The notes: generated by a model from the letters alone, not told the origin. Positions 1,394-58,883 are shown, counted from the stretch's first letter. The stretch is DNA of 64,000 nt from Bacteroidetes bacterium MED-G17 (GCA_002457675.1 NTKK01000006.1:75742-139741), one strand, 5' to 3'. Numbers and translations are program-made.

Positions 1394-2053
1394 ATGAAAT
1401 TCTTTATTGATACAGCCAATCTTTCAGAAATAAATGAAGCAAACGAATTAGGTATTTTGGATGGTGTTACAACCAATCCTTCACTTATGGCAAAGGAAGG
1501 TATTAGTGGAGAAGAAGAAGTTAATGAGCACTACATCAAAATTTGTAATCTTGTAAATGGAGATATAAGTGCTGAAGTTATCTCAACCAATTTCGAAGGT
1601 ATGATAATAGAGGGTCAAAAATTGGCCAAATTACATGAAAATATTGTTGTTAAGGTACCCATGATAAAAGATGGTGTTAAGGCCATAAAGTGGTTTAGCG
1701 ACAAAGGAATAAGAACCAATTGCACCTTGGTGTTTTCACCAGGACAAGCAATTCTTGCAGCAAAAGCAGGCGCAGATTACGTGTCACCATTTGTTGGAAG
1801 AATTGATGACATTACTTGGGATGGTATGGAGCTTATATCTCAAATCTCGGATATATATACCACACAAGGTTACCACACAGAGATTTTAGCAGCTTCGATT
1901 CGAACACCTAAACATATTGTAGAAAGTGCAGAATTGGGTGCAGATGTTATTACCGCACCATTAAAATCAATCCTTGGACTTCTTAACCACCCACTTACAG
2001 ATATTGGTTTGGCTAAATTTTTGGCTGACCATGAAAAAGTAAGTAAATCCTAA
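1394..2053 (+). CDS. tal: Transaldolase, small TalC/MipB-type
   Basis: A 219-residue single-barrel transaldolase of the pentose phosphate pathway, moving a dihydroxyacetone unit between sugar phosphates. Visible active-site features are D6 (FIDTANL), the TTNPS motif with N28, and the Schiff-base lysine K87 in VVKVPM. It has glutamate in the AEVIST segment and phenylalanine in SPFVGRIDD, where E. coli fructose-6-phosphate aldolase has glutamine and tyrosine, so transaldolase activity is favoured over free aldolase activity. It is a useful reference for the aberrant homologue at 57166. The ATG follows the SRP RNA closely. Confidence 0.9.
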   Translation: MKFFIDTANLSEINEANELGILDGVTTNPSLMAKEGISGEEEVNEHYIKICNLVNGDISAEVISTNFEGMIIEGQKLAKLHENIVVKVPMIKDGVKAIKWFSDKGIRTNCTLVFSPGQAILAAKAGADYVSPFVGRIDDITWDGMELISQISDIYTTQGYHTEILAASIRTPKHIVESAELGADVITAPLKSILGLLNHPLTDIGLAKFLADHEKVSKS

Positions 2054-55748: not shown

Positions 55749-55757
55749 ACTCATAAC

Positions 55758-56198
55758 TTAACCGTTGCGGTCTTTTTCGTCTTTATCGCCTTCTCCTCTG
55801 TCTTTTTCGTCTTTATCGCCTTCTCTTCTGTCTTTTTCGTCTTTATCGCCTTCTCCTCTGTCTTTTTCGCCTTTATCACCTTCTCCTCTGTCTTTTTCGT
55901 CTTTATCACCTTCTCCTCTGTCTTTTTCGTCTTTATCGCCTTCTCCTCTGTCTTTTTTGTCTTTATCGCCTTCTCCTCTGTCTTTTTTATCTTTATCGCC
56001 TTCTCCTCTGTCTTTTTTGTCTTTATCGCCTTCTCCTCTGTCTTTTTTGTCTTTATCGCCTTCTCCTCTGTCTTTTTTGTCATCTTGCTTATCTTTTCTA
56101 ATTACTTTTAGCAAGTCATTTTTGTCCAAACCTTCTTTACATCCTGTTGTGAAAGTTAGCGAAGCAAAAAGTGTGATTAATATAATATACGAACGCAT
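55758..56198 (-). CDS. Lipoprotein made largely of a charged decapeptide repeat
   Basis: 146 residues. A lipoprotein signal (ILITLFASLTFTTGCKEG, cysteine at about 20) is followed by a short linker and then about ten tandem copies of a ten-residue unit (KKDRGEGDKD, later copies EKDRGEGDKD). The repeat is strongly hydrophilic, with alternating acidic and basic residues, and should be unstructured or an extended zwitterionic stalk outside the membrane. Only this frame has a signal peptide; overlapping frames are by-products of the repeat. Function unknown. Confidence 0.75.
   Translation of the reverse strand: MRSYIILITLFASLTFTTGCKEGLDKNDLLKVIRKDKQDDKKDRGEGDKDKKDRGEGDKDKKDRGEGDKDKKDRGEGDKDKKDRGEGDKDEKDRGEGDKDEKDRGEGDKGEKDRGEGDKDEKDRREGDKDEKDRGEGDKDEKDRNG
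55771..56070. repeat. Ten perfect-length copies of a 30-bp tandem repeat
   Basis: Ten consecutive 30-bp units plus a partial eleventh, differing by only zero to three bases each. Being a multiple of three, copy loss or gain changes protein length without a frameshift. The units lack stops in all three plus frames and in two of three minus frames. Confidence 0.95.
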
Positions 56199-56335: not shown

Positions 56336-57163
56336 ATGAAGAGGACCTTTGATGTCGGTACCATAAGAATCCACCAAGACGAGCTATTTTTAATATCAGG
56401 TCCTTGTGTAATAGAAGAGAGGGATACCATGTTTAAAACAGCAGAAAAACTGAAACATGTTCAAGACGCGCTCAACATTCCAATCATTTATAAATCTTCT
56501 TTCATGAAAGATAACCGCAGCGCAGTCGATTATTACACGGGTCCTGGAATAGATGAGGGATTAAAAATTTTAGAAGAAGTAAAAGTTCAGTTTGGTTTTC
56601 CTGTTTTAAGCGATATACATTTTCCCTCTCAAGTAATGGACGTAGCAGAAGTATTGGACATCATACAAATACCAGCCTATTTGTGTATGCAAACTACTTT
56701 GGTTACGGAAGCAGCAAAAACAGGCTTGCCAATTAATATTAAACATGGTCAGTTTCTTGCGCCAGAAAACATGGTCAAGCCAATAAAGAAGATTGAATCT
56801 ACTGGGAATGAAAAAATTATATTGACAGAAAGAGGCTATACATTTGGTTACAATGATTTGGTTGTGGACCCTAGAAGCTTCTATCATTTAAATAAAACAG
56901 ACTACCCAGTTGTCTTTGATATAACCCATTCAATTAGGAAATATGGTATTCCAAGTGCAGACCCAAAAGGGGGCAATAAACAATATTTAGATGTTCTCGG
57001 ACGAGCAGGTACCGCAGCTGGTGTTGATGGATTGTTTATAGAAACACATCCTAGTCCAGAAAGGGCATTATGTGATGCAGCTAGCCAAATGTGTGTAAAT
57101 GATTTGGAAGAATATTTAAAACCATTGATTGAAATTCATAATATTGAAAAGAAATACAGATAA
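56336..57163 (+). CDS. kdsA: KDO-8-phosphate synthase-like enzyme, metal-dependent type, divergent
   Basis: 275 residues from ATG 56336; upstream in-frame codons are not conserved. The DAHP/KDO8P-synthase barrel has LISGPCVIEE with C24, which with H198 (DITHSI), E236 (FIETHP) and D247 (ALCDAAS) marks the metal-dependent class. KDNRSAVDYYTGPG fits the KANRSS arabinose-5-P loop, so KDO8P synthase is the nearest family. However, the usual RQTD is MQTT (M118, T121) and KKGQF is KHGQF (H137). It condenses PEP with a phosphosugar; the exact sugar is uncertain. It leads a three-gene operon. Confidence 0.82.
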   Translation: MKRTFDVGTIRIHQDELFLISGPCVIEERDTMFKTAEKLKHVQDALNIPIIYKSSFMKDNRSAVDYYTGPGIDEGLKILEEVKVQFGFPVLSDIHFPSQVMDVAEVLDIIQIPAYLCMQTTLVTEAAKTGLPINIKHGQFLAPENMVKPIKKIESTGNEKIILTERGYTFGYNDLVVDPRSFYHLNKTDYPVVFDITHSIRKYGIPSADPKGGNKQYLDVLGRAGTAAGVDGLFIETHPSPERALCDAASQMCVNDLEEYLKPLIEIHNIEKKYR

Positions 57164-57165
57164 CT

Positions 57166-58176
57166 ATGGAATTTTATCTTGATTCAGCCAATCTAAACGA
57201 AATTAAAGAAGCTTCGGAGCTCGGTTTCATAACGGGTTTGACAACAACACCAACTTTTATGCACCGAGATGGCATAAAGGATATTGATGGCACTATCTTA
57301 CAACTTTCAAAGCTAATGCCTGTGATTCAAGTGGAAGCTCTCGGCAATAATGCAGATGAAATTGAAAAAGAAGCAGACCGATTGGTAGCATTGGGTTTAG
57401 ATCCAAAGAAAACAGTATTCAAAATACCAATCTCTTTGGAAGGCGCAAAAGCATGTAAAAGGCTTGTAAGTAAAGGATATTTGGTGAATTTACATTTAGT
57501 CTACACCCTCCAACAAGCTTATGTGGCCTTGTCTGCTGGAGCATCTTACGTTTGCCCTTTAGCTGGACGATTACAAGATCAAGGACATGATGCGCTTTCC
57601 CTATTTGAACAGTGTGTAGATGCGGTAGATAGATATGGATACGATTCAAAAATTATGTTCTCATCTGTGAGGCATCCAGAACATATAAGAAATGCATTAA
57701 ATATAGGAGTGCATACTTGTACAATGCCATGGAAAGTAATCAAAATGCTCCCAAATAATAACTTCACAACTTTGGGTACCAATCAGTTTGTAGAACACAC
57801 AAGACTAATGACTGTGACTGTTGGACAAGCCATGCGAAAAGCAGATGCTACGATACTTCAAGACAGGCTAGTAAAAGATGCATTGATTGAAATGACCAAG
57901 TCAAAACTTGGAGCTATAACGGTAGTTGGTGAAAATGAAGATATTCAGTGTGTTTTTACAGATGGAGACTTACGCCGCATGTTGGAAAACGAAGGTGAGA
58001 AGGTCTTAAACAAACAACTCTTAGAAATGCCTTCTAAGCTTAGCGTAAGCATTGAGGCAGATGCATTACTCTATGACGCATCTGAATTAATTAAAAGAAA
58101 AAAAGTAGACAATATTGTGGTGACACAAAATGGAAAACCAATAGGAATGTTAGATGTTCAGGATTTAATTGCCTAA
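57166..58176 (+). CDS. Transaldolase-like barrel fused to KdsD-type tandem CBS domains
   Basis: 336 residues. Residues 1-205 form a transaldolase/F6P-aldolase barrel with D6 (FYLDSANL) and a Schiff-base lysine K86 (TVFKIPIS). The normal TTNPS is TTTPT (N28 to T), and the Tyr/Phe of the YVNRID/FVGRID segment is leucine (CPLAGRLQD). Residues about 212-336 are two CBS domains closely like those of arabinose-5-phosphate isomerase KdsD, including KLGAITVV and FTDGDLRRML. It lies 2 nt after kdsA and overlaps the phosphatase gene as TAATG. It may supply or sense the phosphosugar used by the kdsA product; activity is unproven. Confidence 0.85.
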   Translation: MEFYLDSANLNEIKEASELGFITGLTTTPTFMHRDGIKDIDGTILQLSKLMPVIQVEALGNNADEIEKEADRLVALGLDPKKTVFKIPISLEGAKACKRLVSKGYLVNLHLVYTLQQAYVALSAGASYVCPLAGRLQDQGHDALSLFEQCVDAVDRYGYDSKIMFSSVRHPEHIRNALNIGVHTCTMPWKVIKMLPNNNFTTLGTNQFVEHTRLMTVTVGQAMRKADATILQDRLVKDALIEMTKSKLGAITVVGENEDIQCVFTDGDLRRMLENEGEKVLNKQLLEMPSKLSVSIEADALLYDASELIKRKKVDNIVVTQNGKPIGMLDVQDLIA

Positions 58177-58883
58177 TGGAGTTAAAACAAATAGTTTCTT
58201 TGTATGAGGAAATTGGCGCGGAATTTGTGAGTTCAGCTACACAAATCCAACATAAATTTCAAAAGATCAAATGCTTAATTTTTGATTGGGATGGAGTTTT
58301 TCATGGAGGGGAAAAATATGATAACTTTAAAGGAAGTTTTTCTGAACCCGACAGTATGGGCATTAATCTTCTTAGATTTTCAAAATATCTCCTGAATCGT
58401 CAGATGCCAAAAATGGCCATCATAACAGGATTGCACAATAATACAGCGAAACAATTCGCAGACAGAGAACGATTTGACTTTCAATACCATAATTTTAAAG
58501 AAAAAAATGGAGCTTTTCAACACATATTAAAAGAAAACGAACTGCAAGCAGACGAATGCGCTTATTTCTTTGATGACTTGTTGGATATCCGTGTGGCAGA
58601 GCAAGTTGGTTTGCGGATTTTGATTAGTCATAACGCCAATCCATATTTCTCCAACTGGTGCAAAGCGCACAATTATGCTGACTATGTCAGCGCTCATTCA
58701 GGTGGTTTTTTAGCGATTAGAGAGGCATGTGAGATGTTAATGGCAATTGGAGGAAATATTGATAAAGTTTTTTTGGCTAGGAAGAATTTTGATGCGTCTT
58801 ACAAAAATTATCTTGATCAAAAAAGGAATAGCAAGCTTGTACTGTTGGAACCTGTCGATATTGGTCTTCAAGAATTTCTATAA
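58176..58883 (+). CDS. KdsC-like HAD phosphatase, divergent
   Basis: 235 residues. The HAD motifs are D37-W-D39-G-V (nucleophile and acid/base), AIITG (motif II), a lysine in FKEKNGAF (motif III) and YFFDDLLDIRV (motif IV, D133-D134). DYVSAHSGGFLAIREACEML aligns with the KdsC tail, but the usual arginine of GRGAVRE is lost and AIITGR reads AIITGL. It is longer than KdsC at both ends. It probably removes the phosphate from the condensation product of the upstream enzyme; a changed substrate is inferred. Confidence 0.82.
   Translation: MELKQIVSLYEEIGAEFVSSATQIQHKFQKIKCLIFDWDGVFHGGEKYDNFKGSFSEPDSMGINLLRFSKYLLNRQMPKMAIITGLHNNTAKQFADRERFDFQYHNFKEKNGAFQHILKENELQADECAYFFDDLLDIRVAEQVGLRILISHNANPYFSNWCKAHNYADYVSAHSGGFLAIREACEMLMAIGGNIDKVFLARKNFDASYKNYLDQKRNSKLVLLEPVDIGLQEFL

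Follow-up and report, generated by a model that had tools for sequence, protein, structure and literature searches.

A transaldolase–CBS fusion proposed to replace KdsD in a variant Kdo module of Bacteroidota

The window, a 64,000-nucleotide stretch of bacterial DNA, carries a three-gene cassette that probably represents a complete variant module for the synthesis of Kdo, the sugar joining lipid A to the remaining lipopolysaccharide. Kdo synthesis is usually written as a single fixed enzyme set beginning with KdsD. In the variant module, a fusion of a transaldolase-type barrel and a pair of CBS domains is proposed to act as a non-orthologous replacement of KdsD and to produce the pentose that KdsA consumes, most likely D-arabinose-5-phosphate (A5P). 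The gene content, the mutual exclusion with KdsD, the Kdo operon context, the conservation of the lysine and phosphate site, and a paired KdsA signature can be read from sequences, while the catalysis, the A5P product, and the CBS ligand are inferred.

The cassette consists of three consecutive genes on the plus strand forming one tight operon (Table 1). A preliminary description had reported this arrangement at 56336–58883, with a 2-nt gap and a TAATG overlap, and re-derivation of the coordinates and boundaries from the sequence gave the same result. The gap between kdsA and the fusion gene reads CT, and the TAATG at 58174–58178 joins the end of the fusion gene to the start of the phosphatase gene. 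Pfam and NCBIfam profile matches agree with the three assignments originally made, namely a KdsA-type synthase, a transaldolase-like barrel with CBS domains, and a KdsC-like phosphatase. A promoter scan gave no matches in excess of shuffled controls. A lipoprotein-like 146-aa ORF lies at 55758–56198 on the minus strand. A 30-bp tandem array (10.4 copies, 96% match) encoding KDRGEGDKDE repeats makes up its C-terminal half, and a second open frame on the same strand, 55751–56083, spans the array.

Table 1. Features of the cassette and of its diagnostic codons (window coordinates; Ec, E. coli)
Feature	Coordinates	Strand	Remarks
kdsA* (fusion-linked type of KDO-8-phosphate synthase, 275 aa)	56336..57163	+	ATG 56336, TAA 57163
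D59 codon, KDNRS motif (ordinary KdsA: KANRS)	56510..56512	+	D in 53/53 fusion-linked, A in 49/49 KdsD-linked KdsA
M118 codon (Ec R120 / A. aeolicus R106)	56687..56689	+	M in 53/53 vs R in 49/49
Transaldolase–CBS fusion, 336 aa, proposed KdsD replacement	57166..58176	+	ATG 57166; PF00923 and two PF00571
Transaldolase/FSA-type barrel, residues 1–210	57166..57795	+	TIGR00875 E 4.1e-45 (below cut-off)
T28 codon (FSA N28, donor-recognition residue)	57247..57249	+	T in every fusion row; ordinary transaldolases N (28/28)
K86 codon (FSA K85, Schiff-base lysine)	57421..57423	+	K in all fusion rows; R/S in five KdsA-less f4 copies
H110 codon (FSA T109, catalytic-water residue)	57493..57495	+	H in every fusion row; ordinary transaldolases T (28/28)
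KdsD-type CBS pair, residues 216–336	57811..58176	+	TIGR00393/NF008141/NF008581 best
kdsC-like HAD phosphatase, 235 aa, divergent	58176..58883	+	NF007019 E 5.6e-20

In Pfam searches, residues 3 to 202 of the fusion match TAL_FSA (PF00923) with an E value of 2.7e-33 (116 bits, cut-off 27), in addition to two CBS domains (PF00571). Residues 1–210 gave no match to a SIS domain among the Pfam and NCBIfam profiles, TAL_FSA being matched instead. The barrel stays below the NCBIfam equivalog cut-off for fructose-6-phosphate aldolase (TIGR00875, 153.8 vs 245.95 bits), and the fusion is covered by none of the NCBIfam models. For the full-length protein, the AlphaFold model has a mean pLDDT of 90.8, and the best Foldseek match of the barrel is the transaldolase 1vpx of T. 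maritima (E 3.7e-21, rmsd 1.4). For the C-terminal half, the best profile is KpsF/KdsD/GutQ (TIGR00393, E 1.6e-17), with the next unrelated CBS family at 4e-9. When the CBS half is searched alone, KpsF/KdsD/GutQ ranks first for the window copy and is matched in all 22 members tested. In the PDB, both sequence and Foldseek searches place CBS pairs of arabinose-5-phosphate isomerases at the top (4o9k, 3k2v, and 3fna), with 4o9k leading (sequence E 3.4e-15, fold E 2.8e-11). The structure 4o9k shows the CBS pair of a KdsD in complex with a ligand, presumably CMP-Kdo. An origin of this half from unrelated CBS proteins, named beforehand as the outcome that would refute a KdsD-type regulatory half, is thus ruled out by profiles, PDB sequence search, and fold alike. 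Since at least 80 public genomes conserve the fusion from end to end, a chance joining is excluded. A match on a Sinorhizobium sojae plasmid (93% cover) was rejected, as it proved to be an FSA-type gene of the ordinary kind that had been spuriously extended.

The genome containing the window belongs to Bacteroidota, has a size of 1.67 Mb, and is 99% complete. No KdsD was found in it when its SIS-domain proteins were examined; these comprise GlmS (two domains), a PGI/PMI-like protein, MurQ, GmhA, and one weak sub-threshold match, and a KdsD encoded elsewhere in the genome was rejected accordingly. Of a normal kds set, kdsB is present, outside the cassette, whereas a normal kdsD and a canonical kdsC are absent, the cassette phosphatase being the sole KdsC-family match. 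RpiA was absent in the search of this genome, from which no conclusion is drawn, as RpiB was outside the search.

A scan of genome contigs revealed at least 551 stretches encoding relatives of the fusion. The best 80 of these come from Cytophagales, Bacteroidales, Chitinophagales, and Sphingobacteriales-type genomes, and from three Desulfobacterota-labelled MAGs. In all, 247 genomes of the class with at least 90% completeness were scored for KdsA, the fusion (A1, E < 1e-80), and KdsD (TIGR00393, E < 1e-40). KdsA is encoded in 188 of them, 144 with KdsD only, 41 with the fusion only, one with both (G325), and two with neither (G334 and G120, the KdsA of G120 being partial). KdsD or the fusion therefore accompanies KdsA in 186 of 188 genomes, and the fusion is found in 42, about 22% of the KdsA-bearing Bacteroidota genomes sampled. 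The 59 genomes without KdsA include 50 with neither, four with KdsD, and five with the fusion. Fisher's test for the exclusion gives p 8e-38, with shared ancestry ignored. This near-perfect exclusion and the lack of KdsD in the window's genome strongly support the idea, put forward in the preliminary description, that the barrel replaces the SIS domain while the regulatory half of KdsD is kept. The three exceptional genomes stand against it.

The fusion and KdsD each occur in different members of families f1, f6, f12, f16, f36, and f38. The presence of both systems within at least six families implies that replacement or transfer occurred repeatedly. In f1, the window's own family, no full-length fusion was detected in the other genomes searched, and the five scored for KdsD were all positive. 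The closest KdsA relatives of the window's copy belong to a Flavobacteriales-labelled MAG and to Flammeovirgaceae. By inference, the cassette of the window was likely acquired horizontally. Some genomes depart from the general pattern. G325 (L156, L185) encodes the fusion and a full KdsD, with KdsA of the fusion type only. G247 (L199, L207) holds both KdsA types and the fusion without KdsD, and is possibly an intermediate in a switch from KdsD to the fusion. The three Desulfobacterota-labelled MAGs carry the cassette (L092, L095, L096), two of them with a kdsB more divergent than those of Bacteroidota; both true transfer and misbinning are possible.

The active site of the barrel was examined by aligning 90 fusion rows from 88 distinct loci with E. 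coli FsaA and 28 ordinary transaldolases from Bacteroidota. D6, E57, K86, N108, R135, S167, and R169 are invariant across the fusions, with the exception of K86 and R135 in five KdsA-less f4 copies; the Schiff-base lysine K86 and the phosphate-site residues are thus kept in every sampled KdsA-linked fusion. In FSA, K85 is essential, D6 and N28 are donor contacts, N28 touching donor-derived intermediates, and Q59, T109, and Y131 form the catalytic-water network (PMC13259622). Six donor-pocket and water-site columns differ uniformly in the fusions, namely N28T, T109H, Y/F131L, S129C (86/90), A165S, and S57Q. N28T, T109H, and Y/F131L do away with residues on which known transaldolases and FSA rely, which counts against the proposed role. 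The five f4 genomes without KdsA contain a decayed fusion in which K86 is replaced by R or S and H110 and R135 are lost, without kds context. The catalytic lysine is therefore retained only alongside KdsA in the sampled genomes. The decayed copies (L149–L153, in genomes G154, G216, G266, G188, and G243) lie in the same orientation after peptidase-like and alkaline-phosphatase-like genes, and possibly have a new, non-aldolase role.

The clear transaldolase/FSA fold and the Schiff-base lysine would also suit an ordinary transaldolase with an accessory CBS pair, placed beside kdsA by operon chance. This can scarcely be credited, as another transaldolase with a canonical active site is encoded separately at window positions 1394–2035 (+), the active-site replacements of the fusion are uniform, and the link to KdsA* and the absence of KdsD hold even where the genes are unlinked (G146, G144). 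The second transaldolase also means that the fusion is not required for the pentose phosphate pathway. Alternatively, another SIS enzyme, for instance GlmS, which is present in the window's genome, could yield A5P in a side reaction, with the fusion serving as a scaffold or regulator of KdsA*. A precedent is the isomerase domain of trypanosomatid GFAT, which has been proposed as an A5P source (PMC11301363). This alternative is very improbable, for it leaves unexplained why KdsD-less, KdsA-bearing genomes almost constantly encode the fusion, and why its lysine is invariant with KdsA and lost without it.

The kdsA product scores above the cut-offs for KDO-8-phosphate synthase (NF003543, 334.2 vs 242 bits; TIGR01362, 316.9 vs 314 bits), but differs from the E. 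coli enzyme at seven positions, with D59/Y66/Y115/M118/H137/R201/Y203 in place of A61/S68/F117/R120/K139/Q205/R207. This fusion-linked type is referred to as KdsA*. The replacements A61D, F117Y, R120M, Q205R, and R207Y separate all 53 fusion-linked from all 49 KdsD-linked KdsA sequences, the latter forming a widened sample beyond the top scorers, and fusion-linked KdsA has a one-residue insertion in loop L7. The ordinary A5P-pocket residues A61, F117, and R120 are thus not kept, being D, Y, and M in 53/53. Residue R120 corresponds to R106 of A. aeolicus by alignment to 1fwn and its R106G variant 1t8x. The A5P pocket of KdsA is lined by F117 and adjacent residues, with loops L2, L7, and L8 acting as gates to the active site (PMC6650799). 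In a KdsA tree, the copies from fusion genomes fall on one side of a branch, opposite the KdsD-linked ones, with an SH-aLRT of 99. In the mixed families, DYYMHRY is tied to the fusion and ASFRKQP to KdsD, a rule that 21 genomes follow without exception; the first Y of DYYMHRY is F in two copies. Since the signature co-varies with the fusion, two consecutive enzymes changed together. Judged by these comparisons, KdsA* is a newly recognised, separate and co-varying type whose A5P pocket and gate loops have been remodelled.

KdsA* either binds A5P in another way, is handed it by the fusion through channelling, or acts on a related aldose. R120M, F117Y, and A61D lie at sites of contact between KdsA and A5P and also count against the proposed role, as KdsA* may bind A5P differently or use another aldose. 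In the last case, the fusion would make an aldose such as unphosphorylated arabinose or another pentose phosphate, leading to a Kdo isomer or free Kdo through chemistry of another kind. The uniform changes at the pocket and gate loops, together with the altered donor pocket of the barrel, are compatible with such a product, but we consider it unlikely: KdsA* passes the synthase cut-offs and keeps K60, N62, R63, H202, E239, and D250, a phosphatase with intact catalytic residues remains, and ordinary-family KdsB, WaaA, and KdnB are encoded in the same operons.

Homologous cassettes were collected by gene neighbourhood, as had been recommended. Among the 80 loci (the best 80 of at least 551), a phosphatase gene lies directly 3' of the fusion gene in 61 and kdsA directly 5' in 47, and some are adjoined by waaA, kdsB, or the KdnB gene. 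In L066, L107, and others, the order is waaA, aminotransferase, KdnB, kdsA, fusion, kdsC, kdsB. The KdnB of L066, whose stretch also includes waaA and kdsB, matches the Kdo 8-oxidase 5k8c with an E value of 2.5e-127. Genes for a sugar aminotransferase and a close KdnB homologue precede kdsA* in 13 loci (L066, L072, L076, L080, L089, L091, L098, L105, L106, L107, L113, L115, and L157), which suggests the formation of 8-amino-Kdo in those Bacteroidota. In L092, from a Desulfobacteraceae MAG, waaA, kdsB, kdsA, the fusion, and kdsC occur together. The neighbouring waaA, kdsB, and KdnB indicate that the operon product is Kdo or 8-amino-Kdo, and hence that the aldose has the D-arabinose configuration, the latter step resting by inference on the established specificities of these three enzymes. 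The two options left by the preliminary description can therefore be weighed: the same context favours a different way of making arabinose-5-phosphate and disfavours another ulosonic acid as the end product.

The phosphatase matches KdsC below the cut-offs (NF007019, 71.8 vs 208 bits; TIGR01670, 48.2 vs 106.95 bits). Its residues D37, D39, K110, D133, D134, R182, and E183 correspond to D32, D34, K102, D125, D126, R167, and E168 of E. coli KdsC and are conserved in 62/62 sequences. It thus shares the HAD catalytic residues and the C-terminal R167-E168 motif with KdsC/YrbI, but is about 45 residues longer and has W between the motif aspartates (DWDG). The KdsC family was useless as a third exclusive marker, as many Bacteroidota have several YrbI-type phosphatases.

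In the proposed pathway, the barrel of the fusion would make the pentose substrate of KdsA with Lys86 as the Schiff-base catalyst, and the KdsD-type CBS pair would provide the end-product control formerly exerted by KdsD, its ligand being inferred. KdsA* would condense the pentose with PEP, the KdsC-like phosphatase would remove the phosphate, and KdsB, encoded elsewhere in the window's genome, would form CMP-Kdo. The exact reaction of the fusion is the least certain part, as the evidence does not separate the routes. The first choice is a lysine-bound C1–C2 (glycolaldehyde) unit that would be added to glyceraldehyde-3-phosphate with the stereochemistry of FSA, yielding A5P. As cited in PMC6298115, E. 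coli FsaA and FsaB convert glycolaldehyde and glyceraldehyde-3-phosphate to A5P with a KM of 0.2 mM and a kcat of 16 per s, so that a barrel of this family can build A5P. In the cell, a pentose phosphate would be a likelier source of the C2 unit than free glycolaldehyde, and the net reaction would be a C2 epimerisation of ribose-5-phosphate to A5P. Either retro-aldol and aldol steps or a proton-transfer epimerisation could bring this about, and H110 might serve as an additional base. Ketose–aldose isomerisation via a lysine imine was rejected by reasoning only as chemically awkward, since the enaminol would give an amino sugar, and aldol or epimerase chemistry is therefore preferred.

As a sub-case, the fusion could use free glycolaldehyde and glyceraldehyde-3-phosphate directly, as FsaA does in vitro. 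FSA chemistry and stereochemistry yield A5P (PMC6298115), and the donor contact N28 is replaced in all fusions while the phosphate-site residues are kept. This remains doubtful, as no supply of glycolaldehyde is known; FolB is absent from the window's genome, which makes free glycolaldehyde from folate synthesis unlikely there. A broader form of the preferred explanation, for which the case is evenly balanced, is a second, independent entry into Kdo synthesis: a lysine-dependent transaldolase-fold enzyme would make A5P with no isomerisation of the KdsD type and pass it, possibly by channelling, to a co-evolved KdsA* whose A5P pocket is remodelled, in a spreading module that displaces kdsD-kdsA across Bacteroidota and perhaps Desulfobacterota.

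The proposed module resembles several known systems in part. Like KdsD/KpsF/GutQ, the fusion has a C-terminal CBS pair of the same family and a proposed position at the same step, and almost all KdsA-bearing genomes of the class have one of the two; unlike KdsD/KpsF/GutQ, it lacks a SIS domain and has as its catalytic half a transaldolase-type barrel with a Schiff-base lysine. With transaldolase/FSA proteins (PF00923; 1vpx, 3r8r, 3s0c, FsaA) it shares the fold, the lysine, D6, the transaldolase-type glutamate E57, and the phosphate-site R135/S167, but every sampled fusion has N28T, T109H, and Y/F131L, a CBS pair, and a kdsA link, and falls below the FSA cut-off. KdsA* belongs to the same family as KdsA from A. 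aeolicus (1fwn) and E. coli (1d9e) and keeps the PEP and metal-site residues, but is set apart by A61D, S68Y, F117Y, R120M, K139H, Q205R, R207Y, and the L7 insertion. The sulfofructose transaldolase BmSF-TAL is likewise a re-purposed member of the barrel family, but acts in sulfosugar breakdown and has neither a CBS pair nor a kdsA link.

The known prokaryotic routes to D-arabinose are polyprenyl epimerisation, a D-ribulose isomerase, and a KdsD-type isomerase (PMC11301363); a transaldolase-type route is missing from those given there. The initial statement that no description of the arrangement was known still holds, in that none of a transaldolase–CBS fusion in Kdo synthesis was found in the open-access literature. 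Subscription papers and preprints were outside the search, and the novelty is therefore provisional.

If the proposed role is correct, about 22% of the sampled Kdo-making Bacteroidota (42/188) would use another first enzyme and another KdsA pocket, and a pathway step missing in many genomes would be explained. The fusion would add a new natural A5P-forming reaction to a fold used for biocatalysis. Inhibitors based on KdsD and KdsA of the standard kind might then be unsuited to these bacteria, and the fusion and KdsA* would offer a clear example of a joint switch in two consecutive enzymes.
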